Positions 10,122 to 18,765 of a DNA stretch of 62,807 nt are shown one piece after another. This DNA is from Candidatus Eiseniibacteriota bacterium. GTDB lineage: Bacteria; Eisenbacteria; RBG-16-71-46. The stretch covers positions 1 through 62,807 of the forward strand of contig JANYBS010000232.1 of assembly GCA_025360715.1 (NCBI GenBank), given 5' to 3'. Below the pieces are notes generated by a model. The model worked only from the letters and a program-made list of their open reading frames with translations, did not search any database and was not told where the DNA came from. Numbering within the stretch: the first letter of the stretch is position 1; the number at the start of each line of letters is the position of its first letter. The position numbers were made by a program, and so were the translations under genes.

Positions 10122-10286
10122 ATGTCCAGCGTTCTAAGCGTCTACACTGCTGCCCGCGTGCCGCGCGTTCAGCCACACGTGACAGCGGGTGCAGGTCGCG
10201 GTCATTCCGTTCTCACCCGCAATCACATCGCCGCGAGAGTCTCGTACCCCCCTCGAGAGATACTCACATTCATCGGGGAGGTCGGT

Positions 10287-11117
10287 ATGATCGACGTCTA
10301 TACGCGCCGCGCTCTTTTCGCCGGTGGCATCGGCCTGGTGGCCATGGCGGCCTTGATGCTGGGCAGCAATCCCACGAATCCCGCCCACCGGCTCCAGGCG
10401 TCTGACCGCATGACCATGTCGGACGCTGCCATGGCGCGTTGGAGCCACGACTTCTACGCTACGCACCCGATACGCGGCGCCGTGCCGGCTTCGGCGAACG
10501 CGGTCATCGCCGACACGTTCCTGGTGAACAGCTTCTACTTCGACACCGATGGCAACACGGGCACGCAGATCGATACCGCGAAGATCCAGGTCGGGCAGCG
10601 CATCCTGTTCAAATTCGTCGGCGGCTTCCACACCGCCACGAGCGGCACGCCCAACGACCTCACTGCGGGCTCGCACTTCGATGTGCCGATCGATCCCGCC
10701 GACCTGGAAGCGCAGGTGCAGTTCGACACCGTGGGCACCTATCCGTTCTTCTGCCGCCCGCACGGAGCGTTCTTCAACATGCGCGGGGTGATCGTGGTCA
10801 AGCCCAGCACTTCCGGGGTCCCGACGGCCGCGAACCACGCAGGCGTGGGCTTCACCGCGGCGCCTTGGCCCAACCCCTCGTCGCACGGGGCCGCCTTCCG
10901 CTTCGCGATGCCCAAGACCGGCCGGGCGCGCATCGACGCGTACGACGCGAGCGGCCGCCGGATCGTGACGGTGCTCGATGAAGCACTCACCGCGGGCGAG
11001 CATGCCGGCACCTGGGATGGCCGCGCGAACGGCCGCGCCACGGCGGCGGGCGTGTACTACCTGCGGCTCTCGGCGCCCGGCGTGCAGTCCTCGGCGCGGA
11101 TGGTCATCGGCCACTGA
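10287..11117 (+). CDS. exported cupredoxin with FlgD-like C-terminal domain
   Basis: A predicted blue-copper protein of 276 residues. After an N-terminal signal or anchor (residues 8-25) there is a plastocyanin-like domain, about 75-172. Its likely type-1 copper ligands are H115 (GGFHTA), C156 and H159 (FFCRPH) and M165 (NMRG). It would carry electrons or bind copper outside the cytoplasm. Residues 195-276 form an FlgD-like domain (YDASGRRIVTVL, ending GVYYLRLSA), shared with three other exported proteins in this window. GGGGAGG precedes the chosen ATG; the longer frame from 10065 adds 74 residues without export features. Partner proteins are not visible nearby. Confidence 0.85.
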   Translation: MIDVYTRRALFAGGIGLVAMAALMLGSNPTNPAHRLQASDRMTMSDAAMARWSHDFYATHPIRGAVPASANAVIADTFLVNSFYFDTDGNTGTQIDTAKIQVGQRILFKFVGGFHTATSGTPNDLTAGSHFDVPIDPADLEAQVQFDTVGTYPFFCRPHGAFFNMRGVIVVKPSTSGVPTAANHAGVGFTAAPWPNPSSHGAAFRFAMPKTGRARIDAYDASGRRIVTVLDEALTAGEHAGTWDGRANGRATAAGVYYLRLSAPGVQSSARMVIGH

Positions 11118-11693: not shown

Positions 11694-12098
11694 ATGGTAC
11701 GCACGTTCCCTCGTCAGATGGCCTCCATCGCCTCGCTGGTCGCTTATGTGCGGGAGTTCCTCGAGCAAGAGGGCCTCCCGAGCGACAGAGCGTTCGATCT
11801 GGACCTTGTGATCGAGGAACTCTTCACCAACCTCGTCCGGCACGCGACCGGCTCGCGCGGCGACGTGGATGTGAGCCTCGAATCCACCCCCCGCGGGGTG
11901 GTCCTGACGCTCCGGGAATACGATGCGGACCGGTACGACCCGACCGCAGCGCCCGAGGTGGATATCCACCGGCCCATCGCGGACCGCCGCCCGGGAGGCC
12001 TCGGCATCCACCTCGTCCGGCAGCTCTCGACGGATTTCCGCTATGAATGGCAGGACCGCACCGGCCTCATCACCGTGACCATGAAGGAACCCTTCTGA
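11694..12098 (+). CDS. RsbW/SpoIIAB-like anti-sigma serine kinase ATPase
   Basis: A 134-residue GHKL-type ATPase of the partner-switching family. The N-box is in DLVIEELFTNLVRHA and the ATP-lid glycines in RRPGGLGIHLVRQL. Such proteins bind a sigma factor or other target and phosphorylate a STAS antagonist. The very next gene encodes a STAS protein and overlaps it by one base (TGATG), so the pair is almost certainly co-translated. The start has no ribosome site, and a promoter-like element ends about 10 bases upstream, so leaderless initiation is plausible. The target could be the ECF sigma factor two genes downstream, but this class usually controls other sigma factors. Confidence 0.88.
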   Translation: MVRTFPRQMASIASLVAYVREFLEQEGLPSDRAFDLDLVIEELFTNLVRHATGSRGDVDVSLESTPRGVVLTLREYDADRYDPTAAPEVDIHRPIADRRPGGLGIHLVRQLSTDFRYEWQDRTGLITVTMKEPF

Positions 12099-12379
12099 TG
12101 TTCGAGATCCGGATCGAAGGCGAGACGGTCTACCTCGCCGGCCGCCTGGACGCCGCTGAAAGCGACCTGGCCAACGCCCAGATCGCCCCATTGCCGGGCC
12201 CCATCACGCTGGACTGCTCGCGGCTGGAATACATCTCCAGCGCCGGGATCAGCGTCCTGATGGTGGCCTACAAGCGTATGATCGCTGGTGGGAAGGGCTT
12301 TCGCATGGTGAACCTGATGCCACGGGTGAAGAACGTGTTCGTGTACGCCGGGCTCGACAAGCTTCTCGGGATCGAGTGA
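12098..12379 (+). CDS. STAS-domain anti-sigma factor antagonist
   Basis: A 93-residue single-domain STAS protein, the usual SpoIIAA/RsbV-like partner of the upstream kinase. The phosphorylatable serine is expected at S48 in YISSAGISVL, matching the SpoIIAA position. Starting at the ATG that overlaps the previous stop gives the normal STAS length; the longer frame from 12047 is rejected. In the unphosphorylated state it would bind the kinase and release its target. Only 43 bases separate it from the downstream ECF sigma gene, so joint transcription is likely. Confidence 0.9.
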   Translation: MFEIRIEGETVYLAGRLDAAESDLANAQIAPLPGPITLDCSRLEYISSAGISVLMVAYKRMIAGGKGFRMVNLMPRVKNVFVYAGLDKLLGIE

Positions 12380-12422
12380 GCCGGAAAGCCGTCACCAACT
12401 TTTCCCCCCGAGGCGTGTACGT

Positions 12423-12956
12423 ATGGATGAAGACGCGCTGATCCAGCGTTGTCTCGGCGGCGAGAAAGATGCATTCGCCGGGCTGGTGGCCCGCTACGAG
12501 AAGCCACTGTTCAATGTCGCACTACGCATGCTGCGCGACCGCGAAGAGGCCCGGGACGTGACCCAGACGGCGTTCGTCCGGGCGTGGCAGCATCTGGATG
12601 GCTTCGACCGCCGGCACAAGTTCTTCAGCTGGATCTACCGCATCCTCTACAACGAGGCCATCAACCGCATCCGCCGCAGACGCACCGAGCCGCTCGAACA
12701 GACGCTCGAGTCCGCTGCGCCAGGACCGGCCGAGATGGCGGAGGAGCATCAGGTCTCGTCGCGGCTGGATGCCGCCATCGCGCAGTTGAGCGAGGAATAC
12801 CGTCAGGTGATCATCCTGCGGCATTGGCTGGACCACTCCTACCTGGAGATCGCCGACATCCTCGGCGTTCCCGAAAAAACAGTTCGATCGCGGCTGTTCT
12901 CGGCCCGGCGCAAGCTCGGTGAGATCCTGACGCAAGCAGGCATGAGGGGCATGTGA
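12423..12956 (+). CDS. rpoE: ECF-family RNA polymerase sigma factor
   Basis: A 177-residue sigma-70 family protein containing only regions 2 and 4. Region 2 runs over about residues 10-90 (FNVALRMLRDREEARDVTQ, FFSWIYRILYNEAINRIRRR). Region 4 is at about 115-170 (LSEEYRQVIILRHWLDHSY, helix-turn-helix EIADILGVPEKTVRSRLF). It directs RNA polymerase to a specific promoter set. The next gene starts inside its stop codon (GTGA overlap) and looks like its membrane anti-sigma factor. A 10-base string, TCACCAACTT, occurs upstream at 12392-12401 and again upstream of 13807, hinting at a shared control site. The gene name indicates family only. Confidence 0.92.
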   Translation: MDEDALIQRCLGGEKDAFAGLVARYEKPLFNVALRMLRDREEARDVTQTAFVRAWQHLDGFDRRHKFFSWIYRILYNEAINRIRRRRTEPLEQTLESAAPGPAEMAEEHQVSSRLDAAIAQLSEEYRQVIILRHWLDHSYLEIADILGVPEKTVRSRLFSARRKLGEILTQAGMRGM

Positions 12957-13708
12957 ACGACACTTCGCTCGACGACCTGATCCAGGCCCGGTTCGACGGC
13001 ACCGCCTCGCCGCAGGAGCTGCAGCGGCTTGAAGCAGCGCTGCTGAGCGACTCGCGCCTTCGCGAGCGGCATGACGAACTCGCTGCTGTCTTCGCGGCGT
13101 TGACCGACCGAACGCTCGAGGCGCCGCCCGCAACGCTGACAAGCGATATCCTGCGGGCCGTGCGCCAGACGCCCAAAACCGAACGCCGCGCCCCGCGCGC
13201 CACAGCCAGAGCGGGCTTCTCGTGGTTCCGGCTCGCCCTGCCCGCCGCGGCCGCCTGCGCCGCGTTGGTGATGGTCTGGGTATCTTTTCATAGTCCCGCC
13301 CACATGCCCGAGGACCTGCCCGCGCTCAGCGGCACCATCGCGTCGCTCGAGAGCCACCCCCAGCACATTCGCATCCGCCACGACGCCAGCTCGCTGGAAC
13401 TGGTCGCACATCCCTCTGGCGCCGGGCTGACCACGCTCGAACTGCGCAATGGCGGCACACCGGCGCAGGCCGCGCTGCTCGCGGCCCGGGACGCCGTCGA
13501 GTTGACCTCGCTATCCACTTCGGATGCCGGCACTCGCATCAGCGACCCCGATGGCGCGGGCCTGCGCTTTGAACTCGCACCTGGCGCGCGCATCTCGGTG
13601 ACGAGCCGGACTCAGACCGCCGGGCAGACGCTGCGCGTGATCCTGACCAGCCCCGATGGCACGCAGACCCCGGCCAGTCTCGAGTTGGGGCCCGCCGGGA
13701 AGCACTGA
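12953..13708 (+). CDS. membrane anti-sigma factor
   Basis: A 251-residue protein starting at GTG that overlaps the sigma-factor stop, the usual arrangement for an ECF sigma/anti-sigma pair. The N-terminal cytoplasmic part (residues 1-85: LDDLIQARFDGTASPQELQ, ERHDELAAVFAAL) resembles anti-sigma domains but lacks the zinc-binding HxxxCxxC motif. A transmembrane helix lies at about 88-108, followed by an exported beta-rich domain of about 140 residues. It would hold the sigma factor at the membrane until an envelope signal releases it. The signal is unknown. The next gene, an exported repeat protein, is a candidate target or sensor. Confidence 0.8.
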   Translation: MNDTSLDDLIQARFDGTASPQELQRLEAALLSDSRLRERHDELAAVFAALTDRTLEAPPATLTSDILRAVRQTPKTERRAPRATARAGFSWFRLALPAAAACAALVMVWVSFHSPAHMPEDLPALSGTIASLESHPQHIRIRHDASSLELVAHPSGAGLTTLELRNGGTPAQAALLAARDAVELTSLSTSDAGTRISDPDGAGLRFELAPGARISVTSRTQTAGQTLRVILTSPDGTQTPASLELGPAGKH

Positions 13709-13806
13709 GAGTTCTTCACCAACTTCAGGACACCACGCTCGTCATGATACAGGCGGGTGCATCCCGCACCCTTTCACCCGCAGCAATCGAATGAGGAGGA
13801 CCGGAG

Positions 13807-14652
13807 ATGGCCAACAACCGCAATCTGATCGTGGGCGGCATCGTCGTCGTCGCCGCAGCACTGGGGATCGCGACCCTCACGGGCAAGTTCCCTGTTCAGT
13901 CCAACGGCCCCAGCGAAGGCACCATCGGCGCCGCCAAGCGCGCCACCTCGAATCAGATCTCGCCGAGCGACGTGACGGTCGGCGACGCCGAAGTGCAGGC
14001 ATTCCTGCAGAGCGATTCGTTCCACAAGATCCAGACGGATGCCGACTTCCGTAAGCTGGTCACCGAAGGTCTGGGCAAGGCCATCAACGATGGCGGCCTG
14101 AGCCGCTATGGCTCCGCAGAGGGCTTTGGCAAGATGTTGACCGATGCAGGCGTGCAGAAGAGCATCGCGAGTGGCGAACTGGGCCGCATCGTCAACGATG
14201 CCGGCTTCCAGAAGCTGGTCGCGGGCCTGAACCGCGCGTCGCTCGATGCCAAGGCTCTGGATGCGAAGGCGCTTGCGGCCAGGTCGCTCGACGCCAAGGC
14301 CCTTGATGCGAAGGCGCTTGCGGCCAGGTCGCTCGACGCGAAGGCGCTCGATGCCAAGGCTCTGGATGCGAGGGCGCTGGAGTCGGGCATGAACAAGGCG
14401 AACATCGATGCGCTCGATCGCATGATGACCACCGGCTTCGGCAAGTTCCTGGCCGATCCCAGCGTCCAGAAGGCGATCATGGATCCGGGCTTCGGCAAGC
14501 TCGTCATGGACCCGGCGCTCTCCAAGCTCGCGCTCGACCCGGCATTCGGCAAGATGATCATCAGCCCCGAGTTCGGCAAGATGCTCGTCGACCCCGCACT
14601 CGGCAAGGCGATCGCGAACGGCTCGCTGGATCGCGCCGTCACCGAGCGCTGA
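13807..14652 (+). CDS. exported protein with nonapeptide and pentapeptide tandem repeats
   Basis: A 281-residue protein with an N-terminal membrane or signal helix (residues 7-24). Residues 69-139 hold about eight tandem repeats of nine residues (pattern DxxFxKLVx, one copy a residue short). Residues 145-194 hold ten perfect five-residue repeats (A/S-L-D/A-A-K/R). Residues 208-279 hold eight more nine-residue repeats (for example DPGFGKLVM, DPAFGKMII, DPALGKAIA). I recognise no named family. Regular repeats of this kind suggest an elongated solenoid or amphipathic rod. GAGGAGG precedes the ATG. It lies 98 bases after the anti-sigma gene and may belong to that sigma factor's regulon. Confidence 0.75.
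   Translation: MANNRNLIVGGIVVVAAALGIATLTGKFPVQSNGPSEGTIGAAKRATSNQISPSDVTVGDAEVQAFLQSDSFHKIQTDADFRKLVTEGLGKAINDGGLSRYGSAEGFGKMLTDAGVQKSIASGELGRIVNDAGFQKLVAGLNRASLDAKALDAKALAARSLDAKALDAKALAARSLDAKALDAKALDARALESGMNKANIDALDRMMTTGFGKFLADPSVQKAIMDPGFGKLVMDPALSKLALDPAFGKMIISPEFGKMLVDPALGKAIANGSLDRAVTER
14239..14388 (+). repeat. ten tandem 15-bp coding repeats
   Basis: The stretch encodes ten consecutive five-residue units (SLDAK, ALDAK, ALAAR in recurring order, with a degenerate last unit ALESG). A 45-bp super-period of SLDAK-ALDAK-ALAAR is visible. Synonymous differences between units show it is not a very recent slippage product. Confidence 0.85.
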
Positions 14653-14750: not shown

Positions 14751-17747
14751 ATGCCGTTATCGCTCCGCCGGCCCGCCGTCGCGCGCGCGCTCTGCGTTCT
14801 GGCGCTGGCCGTCGTCGCTGCCCTGCGCGCCGCTCCGGCTCGCGCGCAGTATCGCCGCATCGAAGCCGACGGCCTGAGCATGACGTATTCACATCCGTGG
14901 CTCGATTACATCGCGCCTTACACCGCGCGGTGCTTCGAGAACAGCCTGCGGTTCCACCGCAAGCTCTGGGGCTTCGGGCCGAGCGACCCGGTGAATGTGA
15001 TGCTCGACGACTTCTCGGATTACGGGAACGCCGGCGTCTGGGCGGCGCCGCGGCTCAGCCTGAACGTGCATATCGCACCTACCAATTTCGTGTATGAGAC
15101 CGGCCCGGGCAACGAACGCATCAACTTCACGATGAACCACGAGTTGGTGCACGTGCTGGCGCTCGATGGCCAGAGTGGAGCGGACCGCACCTTTCGCGGT
15201 CTCTTCCATGGCCGCGTCCGCGAGGACGACGAACACCCCGAGACGATCCTGTACGGCAATCTCACGTTGCCGCGGCGCGCCAGCCCGCGCTGGTACCACG
15301 AGGGCATCGCCGTGTTCCTCGAGACCTGGATGGCCGGCGGACTCGGCCGCGCCCAGGGCCCCTACGACGAGATGGTGTTCCGCTCCATGGTCCGCGACGG
15401 CGCGCACTTCTATGACCCGCTGGGTCTGGAAGCCGAAGGCACCAAGGTCGACTTCCAGGTCGGCACCAATTCGTATCTTTACGGCACGCGCTTCATGTCG
15501 TATCTCGCGTGGCGGTATTCGCCCGAGAAGGTCATGGACTGGGTCGCGCGCCGCCCGGGCAGCAAGCGCTACTTCGCGAACCAGTTCCAACACGTGTTCG
15601 GCAAGAGCCTGAGTCAGGGCTGGAGCGACTGGATCGCGTTCGAGCACGACTTCGAGCGCGCGAACCTCGATTCACTGCGTCTGCACCCCACGACGCGTTA
15701 CCGCGACCTGTCGACGATCGCACTAGGCAGCGTCTCGCGCGCCTTCGTCGACAGCGCCAGCCATGCATTGATTGCCGCGGTATTCCGCCCTGGCGTCGTC
15801 GCGCATCTCGCGTCAATCCCCCTCGATGGCGGCGCGCCACGAGTGCTGCAGGAGATCCAGGGCCCCACGCTCTACTGCGTCTCCTCCGTCGCGTACGACC
15901 CCGAGACACGGCGCGTCTTCTATACCGCCGACAACAACGAGTGGCGTGACCTGTGCGTGTACGACCTCGCGAGCGGCCGGGCGCACAAGCTCATCAAGGA
16001 CGCCCGACTGGGTGACCTCGCGTGGGACCGTATACATCAGGAACTGTGGGGTGTGCGCCACTTCAATGGCTACTCGAGCATCGTGCACATGCGCGCGCCA
16101 TTCACCGACTGGAAGCTCGCGGTCACGCTGCCCTATGGCCTCGACGCTTACGATCTGGATGTCTCGCCGGACGGCCGCACGATCGCGGCCTCGTTCGCCG
16201 AGATCAACGGCCACCAGAGCCTGCGCCTGCTCGAGACCGCCAAGCTCGCGGCGGCCGACACCACGTCGCGCGCGCTCTGGGAATTCGGCAGCGCGATCCC
16301 CGAGGGCTTCGTGTTCTCTCCCGATGGCCGCGCCCTCTATGGCAGCTCGTACTACACGGGCGTGTCGAACATCTTCCGCTACGACCTGGCGCGCGATTCC
16401 ATGGACGTGCTCAGCAATGCCGAGACCGGCTTCTTCCGCCCCGTGCCCACGGCCGGGGATTCGCTCATCGTGTTTCGATACAGCGGCCATGGCTTCACGC
16501 CCGCGCGCATCGCGCAGACGCCTCTCACCGATGTGAGCGCGATCACGTTCCTGGGCGCTCAGCTCTACGAGAGGTATCCGGTGCTCAAGAGCTGGAAGGT
16601 GCCGCCGCCCTCGCGGGTGGTGCTGGACTCGGTGCGTTCGGCGCCGCAGGACTACCACGCCATGCAGGCCGTGCGGCTCACCACGATCGTTCCGGTCGTG
16701 GAGTCCTACCGCCAGCACACATCCGTGGGCTGGGACGCCGAGCTGTCCGATCCGCTCGGCATGAACCGCTTCAGCGTCTCGGCCACGGTGAGTCCTGAGA
16801 AGGATATGCCCGGGCGCGAACGCGTGCACCTGACGGCGCGCTACCACCGCTACGACTTGGGCCTGGCCTTGCGCTGGAATCCCGCCTCGTTCTACGACCT
16901 GGCGGGTCCCACCTTCGTGAGCCGCAAAGGGGTGAGCAGCGCGATCGACTACCATCGCTCGTTGCTGCGCGACGTGCCGCGCACGTTGGAACTGACTTTG
17001 CGGGCGGATCACTGGGGCGGACTCGATCACTTGCCGGATCAGCAGAACGTGAGCACCTCGCCGGACTTCGACCAGCTATTCTCCACGAGCACCGAGCTGC
17101 GCTACAAGAACACGCGCGGCTCGCTGGGCTCGGTGGATCCCGAGGTCGGGCATACGTGGTTCCTCTCGTTGTCGCAGAACGACGTGCGCTTTCGCAGCGC
17201 GGGTGCCTCGGTATGGAAGGCCTATCCGTTCGCCCAAGCCGGGCTCGACGCGGGCCACCCGGTGCCGGGCCTGGCGCACTCGTCGGTCTGGCTTCGCAGC
17301 AGCGTCGGTCTAGCGTCACACGACCCCGCGCAGCCGTTCGCGAATTTTTATTTCGGCGCGTTCGGCAACAACTTGCTCGATCATCTCGAGCCCAAGCGTT
17401 ATCGCTCCCCGGAGAGCTTTCCGGGCCTGCCGATCGACGCCGTGGCCGGCACGAACTACGCGCGGACGATGCTGGACTGGAACCTGCCGGCCCTGCGGTT
17501 CCGCCGCGCGGGCACGCTCGCGCTCTATGCGAGCTGGGCGCGCGTGTCGTTTTTTGGCAGCGTGCTCGCTACGGAGCTGGGTGATACCGCACTGCGCCGC
17601 AAGGTCGGCGACGCCGGCGCTCAGGTGGACTTCCGCCTGCAGTTGCTCACTCAGAGCCCGCTCACGCTGTCGTTCGGGTATGCGCGCGCGTTCGAGAAGA
17701 ACATCGCGCCGCACTCCGAATGGATGGCGTCGTTGAAGGTGCTTTGA
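14751..17747 (+). CDS. exported metallopeptidase / beta-propeller / outer-membrane barrel protein
   Basis: A 998-residue protein whose signal peptide ends APARAQ; GGAGG precedes the ATG. The gluzincin-type zinc motif HELVH is at residues 130-134, with a likely third ligand E184 in WYHEG (peptidase MA-like arrangement). The middle (about 320-620) carries TolB/WD40-like propeller repeats such as DVSPDGRTIA and FSPDGRALYG. The last 330 residues alternate polar and aromatic residues (RVHLTARYHRYDLGLALRW and similar) and end in a C-terminal strand like that of outer-membrane beta barrels. I infer a cell-surface or outer-membrane-anchored protease. The downstream gene, two bases after its stop, encodes another membrane protease. 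Confidence 0.8.
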   Translation: MPLSLRRPAVARALCVLALAVVAALRAAPARAQYRRIEADGLSMTYSHPWLDYIAPYTARCFENSLRFHRKLWGFGPSDPVNVMLDDFSDYGNAGVWAAPRLSLNVHIAPTNFVYETGPGNERINFTMNHELVHVLALDGQSGADRTFRGLFHGRVREDDEHPETILYGNLTLPRRASPRWYHEGIAVFLETWMAGGLGRAQGPYDEMVFRSMVRDGAHFYDPLGLEAEGTKVDFQVGTNSYLYGTRFMSYLAWRYSPEKVMDWVARRPGSKRYFANQFQHVFGKSLSQGWSDWIAFEHDFERANLDSLRLHPTTRYRDLSTIALGSVSRAFVDSASHALIAAVFRPGVVAHLASIPLDGGAPRVLQEIQGPTLYCVSSVAYDPETRRVFYTADNNEWRDLCVYDLASGRAHKLIKDARLGDLAWDRIHQELWGVRHFNGYSSIVHMRAPFTDWKLAVTLPYGLDAYDLDVSPDGRTIAASFAEINGHQSLRLLETAKLAAADTTSRALWEFGSAIPEGFVFSPDGRALYGSSYYTGVSNIFRYDLARDSMDVLSNAETGFFRPVPTAGDSLIVFRYSGHGFTPARIAQTPLTDVSAITFLGAQLYERYPVLKSWKVPPPSRVVLDSVRSAPQDYHAMQAVRLTTIVPVVESYRQHTSVGWDAELSDPLGMNRFSVSATVSPEKDMPGRERVHLTARYHRYDLGLALRWNPASFYDLAGPTFVSRKGVSSAIDYHRSLLRDVPRTLELTLRADHWGGLDHLPDQQNVSTSPDFDQLFSTSTELRYKNTRGSLGSVDPEVGHTWFLSLSQNDVRFRSAGASVWKAYPFAQAGLDAGHPVPGLAHSSVWLRSSVGLASHDPAQPFANFYFGAFGNNLLDHLEPKRYRSPESFPGLPIDAVAGTNYARTMLDWNLPALRFRRAGTLALYASWARVSFFGSVLATELGDTALRRKVGDAGAQVDFRLQLLTQSPLTLSFGYARAFEKNIAPHSEWMASLKVL

Positions 17748-17748
17748 G

Positions 17749-18765
17749 ATGCAGTGGAACCTGCTCGCGGGCTTCCTGCCGGTGCTGATGTTCCTCGTCG
17801 CCCTCAAGCTGATCGACAGCTACAAGCTCATCCATCGCGAGACGCTGGCCACATCGCTGTGCGCCGGCGCGGCCGCGGCACTGATCGCATGGCTCGTGCA
17901 GTCGCAGCTCGTCGCGCGCGGAGCGGTCGACCCCACGGTGCTGCGCCACTATCTCGCACCACTGCTCGAGGAAGTGCTCAAGGCGGTATTCGTCGCGTGG
18001 CTCATCCGTACGGACCGCGTGGGCTTCATGGTTGACGCGGCGATCGCAGGCTTCGCCGTGGGCGCGGGCTTCGCGCTGGTGGAGAATCTCTACTACGCAC
18101 AGGCGCTTTCTGATAGCTCGATCGGTCTGTGGTTGGTACGCGGCCTGGGCACCGCAGTCATGCACGGATCGACCACAGCGGTGTTCGCGATCCTGAGCAA
18201 GGACCTGGGCGAGCGACATGAATACTCGGGCCCGCTGCTGCTGCTGCCGGGCCTCGCGGTAGCGGTCACGGTGCACGCGGCATTCAATCACCTCACGCTC
18301 AACCCGATGCTCACGACGGCGGCGCTGCTGGTGACGATGCCATTGCTGCTGCTCGCGGTGTTCGATCGCAGCGAAAAGGCGACGCGCGACTGGCTGGGCT
18401 CGGGACTCGACAGCGAAGTCGACATGCTGGAGCAGATCCTCGACGGCGAAGTCGCAGGCACGCCCGTGGGCCGCTATCTCGAGACGCTCAAGGCGCACTT
18501 CCCGGGCATGATCGTGGCGGACATGCTGTCGCTCTTGCGCATCCATCTGGAACTGAGCCTGCGCTCAAAGGGCCTCCTCATCGCCCGCGCCGCGGGCATC
18601 GAGGTTCCACTGGGCCCGGATGTGAAGGCGAACCTCGAAGAACTCCGCTACCTGGAACGCAGCATCGGCCCGACGGGCCAACTGGCCCTGCTCCCCTTAC
18701 GCCGCACGAGCAGCCGCGATCTCTGGCAGATCATGCTCCTGGCCCGGGAAGCGAACCGCACCTAG
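17749..18765 (+). CDS. prsW: PrsW-family intramembrane metalloprotease
   Basis: A 338-residue polytopic membrane protein. It has the PrsW/CAAX-like motifs EEVLK at residues 74-78, an FALVEN segment ending near E112, and later histidines in VMHGSTTAVF and AAFNHLTLNP. PrsW in Bacillus cleaves an anti-sigma factor within the membrane. About seven hydrophobic helices occupy residues 5-240, and a soluble helical tail of about 100 residues follows. It starts one base after the stop of the metallopeptidase gene, so they share a transcript. Its TAG stop is part of the CTAG that flanks a short inverted-repeat element. A substrate such as the nearby anti-sigma factor is possible but not shown. Confidence 0.85.
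   Translation: MQWNLLAGFLPVLMFLVALKLIDSYKLIHRETLATSLCAGAAAALIAWLVQSQLVARGAVDPTVLRHYLAPLLEEVLKAVFVAWLIRTDRVGFMVDAAIAGFAVGAGFALVENLYYAQALSDSSIGLWLVRGLGTAVMHGSTTAVFAILSKDLGERHEYSGPLLLLPGLAVAVTVHAAFNHLTLNPMLTTAALLVTMPLLLLAVFDRSEKATRDWLGSGLDSEVDMLEQILDGEVAGTPVGRYLETLKAHFPGMIVADMLSLLRIHLELSLRSKGLLIARAAGIEVPLGPDVKANLEELRYLERSIGPTGQLALLPLRRTSSRDLWQIMLLAREANRT

Follow-up and report, generated by a model that had tools for sequence, protein, structure and literature searches.

A hypervariable repeat protein in a conserved ECF sigma factor locus, probably the outward-facing part of an envelope-signalling device

Gene content of the locus

The window, the whole 62.8-kb stretch of Candidatus Eiseniibacteriota DNA analysed here, carries in this order genes for an RsbW/RsbA-like HATPase_c_2 protein, a STAS protein, an ECF sigma factor, an anti-sigma factor, a repeat protein (REP), an exported protein with a peptidase-like domain and a propeller (PD40), and a PrsW-family protease (Table 1). 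The ECF sigma protein reaches 122.7 bits with TIGR02937 (cut-off 42.9) and matches the SigW model at 2.2e-36, below the equivalog cut-off. The anti-sigma gene overlaps the ECF stop, and its product matches NF052375 at 7.1e-13 (49.1 bits, against a cut-off of 100). Upstream of the locus, positions 10245-11117 encode a cupredoxin-like protein with a C-terminal FlgD-like domain, which is not conserved with the locus apart from a weak match in L020. A preliminary description of this DNA had dealt with REP and the neighbouring sigma/anti-sigma pair; it overlooked the hypervariability of the repeats, the N-terminal anchor that defines the family, and the downstream extension of the locus to PD40 and PrsW.

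Table 1. Features of the REP locus in the window
Feature	Position	Strand	Basis
RsbW/RsbA-like serine-kinase/anti-sigma ATPase gene	11694..12098	+	Pfam HATPase_c_2 1.7e-20; NCBIfam RsbA_anti_sig 5e-11, below cut-off
STAS-domain (anti-sigma antagonist) gene	12098..12379	+	Pfam STAS_2 3.2e-12, STAS 1.2e-9
Sigma-type promoter of ECF gene, CCAACTT-N14-TGTA	12395..12419	+	
ECF sigma factor gene, SigW-like	12423..12956	+	Pfam r2 5.5e-18, r4_2 1.1e-18
Anti-sigma factor gene; own transmembrane helix (residues 94-112) and periplasmic domain	12953..13708	+	NCBIfam NF052375, hydropathy
Sigma-type promoter of REP, CCAACTT-N14-CGTC	13719..13743	+	
Ribosome-binding site AGGAGG	13794..13799	+	7 bases 5' of REP ATG, read directly
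REP, repeat protein, 281 aa	13807..14652	+	ORF and homologues
REP membrane helix, residues 7-25	13825..13881	+	hydropathy
REP conserved anchor, residues 37-76 (EGTIGAAKR...QISPSDVTV...FLQSDSFHKI)	13915..14034	+	family alignment
REP nonapeptide arm 1, about residues 60-139	13984..14223	+	self-similarity and nonapeptide matrix
REP central pentads, residues 145-193	14239..14385	+	reading, DNA repeat, self-similarity
REP nonapeptide arm 2, residues 208-279	14428..14643	+	self-similarity and nonapeptide matrix
PD40: exported HExxH peptidase-like domain, TolB-type propeller, beta-rich C-terminus	14751..17747	+	
PrsW-family intramembrane protease gene	17749..18765	+	Pfam PF13367 8.2e-19, 68.3 bits, cut-off 23.5; EExxK

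The REP protein

REP begins with six residues ahead of its membrane helix, which hydropathy marks as the only hydrophobic segment of the protein. A linker follows, then a first arm of 8 or 9 nonapeptides, a centre of pentads and a second arm of 8 nonapeptides. The centre reads SLDAK-ALDAK-ALAAR twice and then SLDAK-ALDAK-ALDAR-ALES, giving nine full pentads and one partial, and its DNA is a 45-bp repeat with 91% matches. The self-similarity z-score of the protein is 9.6 for a lag of 18, 7.6 for 9 and 4.7 for 5; in 1000 shuffles no lag exceeded 4.7. The pentad, plain in the DNA, is therefore borderline in this test when taken alone, because its score equals the highest shuffle value. A nonapeptide matrix derived from the family, to which this REP itself contributed, detects 11 units in it compared with a mean of 0.15 in shuffles. 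The reading of the preliminary description—two nonapeptide blocks around pentads, behind one N-terminal membrane helix—is thus borne out by the open reading frame, the periodicity and the hydropathy. It also knew of no named family with this architecture, and REP indeed reaches the cut-off of no Pfam or NCBIfam family and matches none in NCBIfam at E <= 1e-3. The Pfam profile of the pentapeptide repeat, A(D/N)LXX (PF00805), gives no match at E <= 1, in agreement with the earlier observation that the pentads depart from the standard pattern. A phmmer comparison of arm 2 with PDB sequences returned coagulation factor V at 1.6e-8, with no single stretch significant alone; this was taken as convergence of two nine-residue arrays.

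Anchor, distribution and conservation of the locus

Proteins matching the window REP occur in 15 of the 59 genomes searched. Their alignment defines a family anchor, consisting of the membrane helix and the motif EGTIGAAKRYQxxQIxxxDVxLxDPQxQAFLQSDLFHK, in which I40, G41, A43, D55, V56, Q68, D70 and F72 are invariant (15/15). With the anchor as query, exactly one REP copy was found in each of the 16 genomes, among 47 of the phylum, that have REP. A contig scan with a single REP protein as query found nothing, and one with the anchor profile found nine loci, labelled Ca. Eisenbacteria, Ca. Latescibacterota, Ca. Rokuibacteriota, Gemmatimonadetes, Acidobacteria and Bifidobacterium breve. Draws from four of those phyla, at a threshold of E <= 1e-6, contained anchor matches in 1 of 7, 1 of 95, at least 14 of 297 and at least 19 of 396 genomes, the draws of 297 and 396 overlapping. 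The anchor matches no NCBIfam family, no PDB sequence and, apart from single weak members, no Pfam family; L088 as query against PDB sequences was equally unproductive. The genome behind the Bifidobacterium breve label (L051) falls in the same phylum group as the Acidobacteria-labelled one and is probably a mislabelled MAG.

The counts below refer to 39 non-duplicate loci and 40 REP open reading frames, in which the partial locus L057 is included and from which L049, L052, L053, L054 and L056 are excluded as duplicates of L021, L030, L029, L032 and L028, respectively. An ECF gene is present in 32 of these loci and PD40 in 33, and the RsbW-like kinase gene is retained upstream of ECF in relatives. 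Four of the loci that lack ECF (L023, L033, L057, L098) are limited by contig ends; the other three (L088, L095, L102) are not. PD40 is missing from L032, L085, L086 and L092 at contig ends, and from L051 and L102 away from them. The preliminary description held that homologues located away from any sigma factor would speak against its proposal, and such cases form a minority: L102, together with L088 and L095, which have PD40 and PrsW and no ECF gene within the stretch read. Most loci keep the sigma factor. L102 (6485-7192) is a second, short REP in genome G503 with no recognised neighbour, possibly an orphan or decayed copy. Gene order also varies: L089 and L091 are rearranged to HATPase-STAS-REP-PD40-PrsW-ECF-antisigma, and L087 (6865-14937) has two REP genes with related but different centres, in the order ECF-REP-antisigma-REP-PD40-PrsW.

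Within the phylum, PD40 occurs in 17 of 47 genomes, 14 of them shared with REP. The three genomes with PD40 only have a REP C-terminus, made of nonapeptide or 12-mer repeats, just 5' of PD40, where the contig is broken inside the repeats. One of the two genomes with REP only has a PD40 fragment at a contig edge, and the contig of the other stops 390 bases past REP. Allowing for contig ends, the data fit a strict pairing of REP and PD40 in all 19 genomes of the phylum that have either gene (19 of 19). Draft contigs break inside the REP repeats in L059, L060, L061 and L085, so that REP will often be missing or truncated in metagenome assemblies.

Turnover of the repeats

Conservation of the family is concentrated in the anchor. 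Among 20 of the 40 REP frames, the anchors match one another at E <= 1e-3 in 188 of 190 pairs, compared with 65 of 190 for the remaining protein. The usual architecture places a different centre, such as PDADGGRQVTL, VDIDAQKRxNTA or ALDAK, between two stretches of nonapeptides; nine-residue units are the commonest, and the centre is swapped for units of 5, 10, 11, 12 or 13/26 residues. A period of 9 (or 18, 27) is clear in nine of 20 relatives examined closely, the window included, while other members have periods of 10 (L026), 11 (L029-L032), 12 (L025, L058) or 13/26 (L024), and periodicity is weaker in L027, L028 and the partial L057. The matrix built on 343 units gives the nonapeptide consensus [NDS][PAD][DEAN]F[QAR][AKR][LA][LVM]A. 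At least three such units are present in 37 of the 40 frames, with a maximum of 84 in L094 and shuffle means of up to 1.7. L058, L096 and L097 carry 0, 0 and 1, respectively, so no repeat type is required.

This turnover is also seen at short evolutionary range. L024 belongs to the same genus as the window and is 67% identical in PD40 and 64% in the ECF protein; its REP centre consists of helical 13/26-mers in place of the ALDAK pentads. Within one genus, the copy number of an 11-residue unit is about 4 in L031 and 10 or more in L029, L030 and L032. The shortest REP frame has 197 aa and the longest 1039 aa, a spread that argues against a strict ruler.

Some of these arrays attract curated family names. 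L058 (4882-7305) and L061 encode REP proteins in which a 12-residue ERATLQEKAxLM-like unit is present more than 50 times, and REPs of this type match Pfam LED_rpt at 2e-29, above its cut-off, along with several unrelated families. In a Pfam survey of 24 of the 40 REP frames, such names mostly matched one or two members, the widest being TPR_END_plus (6/24) and STI1-HOP_DP (8/24). LED_rpt, LbH_EIF2B, MgtE_N, LpxD, TPR_END_plus, Med31 and others on long repetitive relatives were treated as compositional. STI1-HOP_DP (PF17830) was singled out because its short helices capped by D/N-P fit the nonapeptide unit. It matches eight of the 24 at E <= 1e-3, with a best value of 1.9e-21; L088 (74.2 bits) and L103 (73.7 bits) exceed the cut-off of 29.1 bits, with partial profile coverage and a score summed over units, and the window REP falls below it at 13.3 bits. 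Membership of the RTX repeats was rejected. Their consensus is GGxGxDxUx, a pattern absent from the consensus of the 343 nonapeptide units.

Structure prediction provides a limited view of the arms. An AF2 model of REP built from nine sequences has a mean pLDDT of 50.6; in this weak model the nonapeptides mostly form a helix of about 7 residues followed by a two-residue break at D/N-P, and the centre forms long helices. Foldseek with this model gave no match at E <= 0.001, and VIA-align gave only helical bundles with Z <= 7.0. The ABC-transporter helices that made up most of the output of both searches are meaningless because the model is weak.

A sigma-type promoter before ECF and REP

The motif CCAACYT-N14-YGTM (CCAAC[CT]T, 14 bases, [CT]GT[AC]) is common to the regions upstream of REP. 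The window contains exactly two matches, before ECF and before REP, where 0.12 are expected, and two or more arise in 2 of 100 window shuffles. The number found in the window is not independent, because the pattern was chosen after the regions had been viewed. Across the whole genome there are 8 strict matches, and the six outside the ECF and REP promoters all lie inside long open frames. The reversed pattern gives 11. In this search for a wider regulon, the strict motif thus does not rise above background over the genome as a whole or outside the locus, and what is informative is where it stands.

The 39 loci (523,562 bases) contain 26 strict matches. Ten Markov resamples gave no more than 1 each, and the reversed sequence gave 5. 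Fourteen lie before ECF, 11 before REP and one between REP and the anti-sigma gene (L087), with placement assigned by hand in L022, L090, L096, L097 and L100, where the longest open reading frame overran the site. Judged from sequence, this conserved placement across phyla is a stronger point than the count in the window. The suggestion of the preliminary description that REP is a target of the sigma factor is thereby supported: the only two motifs of the window precede ECF and REP, and they recur there in relatives. In the window, the -10 element TGTA (12416-12419) ends 3 bases ahead of the ECF ATG (12423), and a distance of 25-28 bases from CCAAC to the ECF start is found also in L021, L031, L050, L089, L091 and L099. 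Because the -10 element adjoins the start codon and this spacing recurs in relatives, the ECF mRNA may be leaderless.

Fusion of REP to the anti-sigma domain

Where the gap between ECF and REP is near zero, the REP frame carries an N-terminal extension. A model of 13 separate anti-sigma N-termini matches the REP N-terminus in seven of 40 frames (L086, L103, L094, L099, L028, L090 and L051), at 2.7e-24 to 7.8e-4, with zero matches in reversed sequences. No other non-overlapping frame at the fused loci matches this model below 1e-3. NF052375 also gives matches to five fused REPs, all below its 100-bit cut-off as for the separate anti-sigma factor of the window, at 1e-9 (L086), 2.5e-7 (L103), 1.3e-6 (L099), 1.1e-5 (L094) and 5.9e-3 (L090); the window REP contains no NF052375 anti-sigma domain. 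In several fused frames the old REP start still has a Met preceded by a Shine-Dalgarno-like run, and L090 also contains an internal sigma motif, so such frames may in addition yield a separate REP product. The alternative role proposed in the preliminary description, that of a signal partner, gains support from this arrangement, as REP keeps its place beside the sigma gene in different phyla and is in frame with an anti-sigma domain in 7 of 40 cases.

PD40 and PrsW

PD40 of the window has a signal-peptide-like start, H130, E131 and H134 of an HExxH motif, and E184. Among its homologues, HExxH and WxxEG are each present in 32 of 32; HExxH with a distal Glu is taken here to be a gluzincin / peptidase-MA-like motif. 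The N-terminal part matches no curated peptidase family, with no Pfam hit at E <= 10. The propeller is recognised by Pfam PD40 and by Foldseek as TolB, with a poor superposition. AF2 gives PD40 a mean pLDDT of 40 and places several strands of 10-16 residues in 728-997, mostly with pLDDT below 50. Strand-like alternation in the C-terminus is 0.186 compared with 0.105 in shuffles, but it is no higher than in the peptidase part (0.184), so the score is not discriminating. The beta-rich last third of PD40 may form an outer-membrane barrel, which is only suggested because the AF2 model is poor. The EExxK motif of PrsW proteases is present in 28 of 29 PrsW proteins of the loci, the remaining one being a gap; the window protein scores 31.5 bits with the NCBIfam PrsW equivalog, which requires 225.

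Proposed role of REP

A so far undescribed envelope-signalling device probably has REP as its outward-facing part. Its fusions, fixed place in the locus, single copy and promoter argue that REP is a dedicated component of such a device. A more specific proposal, favoured here with roughly even confidence, gives REP the role of periplasmic arm in an ECF sigma/anti-sigma device that is autoregulated and gated by PD40 and PrsW. At the level of sequence, its support is established in the locus, the promoter motif, the fusions, the active-site motifs and the hypervariability. The combination of a SigW-like sigma factor with PrsW points to regulated proteolysis, as in SigW-RsiW-PrsW.

According to this proposal, REP would be held in the inner membrane by its one helix, with a short positively charged N-terminus in the cytoplasm and the repeats in the periplasm, a predicted topology that the fused relatives require, since their anti-sigma domain is N-terminal and cytoplasmic. 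In the resting state the sigma factor would be bound by the anti-sigma factor, and REP would join this complex through the invariant anchor just outside the membrane. REP would not be needed as the membrane part of the anti-sigma factor in the window, because that protein has its own membrane helix and periplasmic domain, a point against the proposal. Also against it are the REPs with no sigma gene nearby (L102, L088, L095), the absence of PD40 from L051 despite room downstream, and the chance that fused frames make REP on its own as well. The repeat arm would extend toward exported PD40, probably at the outer membrane, and would report the state of the envelope or of PD40. Envelope damage would alter the contact between REP and PD40, or allow PD40 to cleave the arm; the anti-sigma factor would then be cut by PrsW and subsequently by a general site-2 protease, releasing the sigma factor. 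Complex formation, the order of these cleavages, the outer-membrane location of PD40 and the signal are what we infer from the arrangement. The freed sigma factor would fire two promoters, that of its own gene and that of REP-PD40-PrsW, so that the device would renew its sensor and proteases. Sequence constraint would be strong only on the anchor, and the rest would need only to be a long, mostly helical, periodic rod, which would allow repeat types and copy numbers to drift.

The same neighbourhood could reflect shared regulation only, with REP as an output: a stress-induced periplasmic scaffold or filler that PD40 and PrsW process. The promoter stands before REP at the head of the REP-PD40-PrsW unit, the window has a complete anti-sigma factor with its own membrane helix, and the tolerance of any repeat type suits a bulk or structural protein. 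However, in the seven fused cases the N-terminus of REP holds the sole anti-sigma domain that the locus has, and a single copy per genome tied to one locus is unusual for bulk output, which makes this reading possible but doubtful. It is improbable that the repeats arose by neutral slippage in a tail of no importance, with only the membrane helix and anchor functional. The conserved anchor with its replaced remainder (188 vs 65 of 190 pairs) and the copy number of the 11-residue unit, about 4 in L031 and 10 or more in its congeners L029, L030 and L032, are what such slippage would produce, but the frame stays open across 100 to 950 aa of repeats, and at least three nonapeptides recur in 37 of 40 members. 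Least credible, and very improbable in our judgement, is a centre that serves as precursor, from which PD40 would cut identical short peptides acting as a species-specific signal. Units are near-identical within a protein and unrelated between genera (PDADGGRQVTL, VPTENGKTIL, VDIDAQKRQNTA, ALDAK), and an exported HExxH protein with an intact motif adjoins REP; yet the units share no cleavage-site pattern, many centres are merely further nonapeptides, and the locus has no conserved exporter or receptor.

A special form of the periplasmic-arm explanation, itself rather unlikely, treats the nonapeptide arms as an STI1-like groove for exposed hydrophobic segments of unfolded outer-membrane or membrane proteins, where client binding would free the anti-sigma factor for PrsW. 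In a study of ubiquilin (PMC13083928), the STI1 domain comprises six helices with turns of about 90 degrees and conserved prolines at some turns, and the groove formed by these short turned helices binds a transmembrane segment. The REP unit [NDS][PAD]xFx[AK][LA][LVM]x, the short helices broken at D/N-P in the AF2 model, and the eight STI1-HOP_DP matches, with L088 and L103 far over the cut-off, are in line with this idea. Against it, the window REP stays below the cut-off, each match spans about half of the profile while its score sums many units, implausible other families match long repeats too, Foldseek finds nothing at E <= 0.001, and long nonapeptide arrays are missing from many members. 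STI1-like client binding is therefore a lead only and not a membership. Spelled out as a receptor, with a slim chance of being right, it would be a periplasmic arm joined to or associated with the anti-sigma factor that, once occupied by a client, opens the anti-sigma factor to PrsW and the exported HExxH protease.

Relation to known systems and significance

As periplasmic arm of the proposed device, REP can be set beside several described systems. The SigW-RsiW-PrsW system of Bacillus subtilis likewise has a SigW-like ECF sigma factor, a membrane anti-sigma factor and a PrsW-family protease with EExxK. Site-1 cleavage of RsiW is attributed to PrsW (PMC4183432). Here, in contrast, PrsW is encoded in the sigma locus beside REP, an RsbW/STAS pair and an exported HExxH/propeller protein, none of which is known to belong to the RsiW pathway. 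In the SigE-RseA-RseB-DegS system of Escherichia coli, a membrane anti-sigma factor is cleaved under the control of a periplasmic partner (PMC4183432), an idea shared with the proposal for REP. REP differs in being membrane-anchored, repetitive and unrelated in sequence, and no DegS-like protease showed up in the conserved gene set.

Likeness to the repeats of other families is partial. REP resembles the STI1/HOP DP domain (PF17830) and ubiquilin STI1 in its predicted short D/N-P capped helices and in the profile matches of eight of 24 members; in contrast, REP arrays reach 84 detected nine-residue units, are bacterial and are predicted to be periplasmic. RTX proteins also have a nine-residue tandem unit, which binds calcium and forms a beta-roll (PMC6891781), whereas the REP unit is of a different consensus and is predicted to be helical. 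The RsgI-type anti-sigma factors of Clostridium thermocellum combine one anti-sigma architecture with a changing extracytoplasmic part that senses substrates (PMC12203970); in REP the changing part is a tandem-repeat arm and mostly sits on a separate protein. The openly available literature that was searched contained no paper recognised as describing the REP locus or family, and the accessible portions of a review of non-canonical ECF sigma factors (PMC8999054) and of the Solibacter genome paper (PMC3174227) do not mention the locus. The REP system would represent RIP-type ECF signalling with an unusual, hypervariable repeat component.

The finding adds a self-contained envelope-signalling locus common to phyla known mostly from metagenomes, namely Eisenbacteria and members labelled Acidobacteria, Rokubacteria and Gemmatimonadetes. 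This locus unites an ECF sigma factor, a partner-switching pair, PrsW, an exported HExxH protein and an arm that keeps its anchor and replaces its repeats. The promoter motif and the genomic signature provide a means of finding the system, and the natural anti-sigma fusions indicate how the parts of the locus belong together. If the arm were indeed an STI1-like receptor, the system would sense unfolded proteins independently of any relationship to DegS/RseB, and its arm would evolve through the exchange of entire repeat types. More broadly, REP makes it possible to ask which part of a trans-envelope sensor must stay conserved, and whether a change of repeat type alters the signal or only the length.
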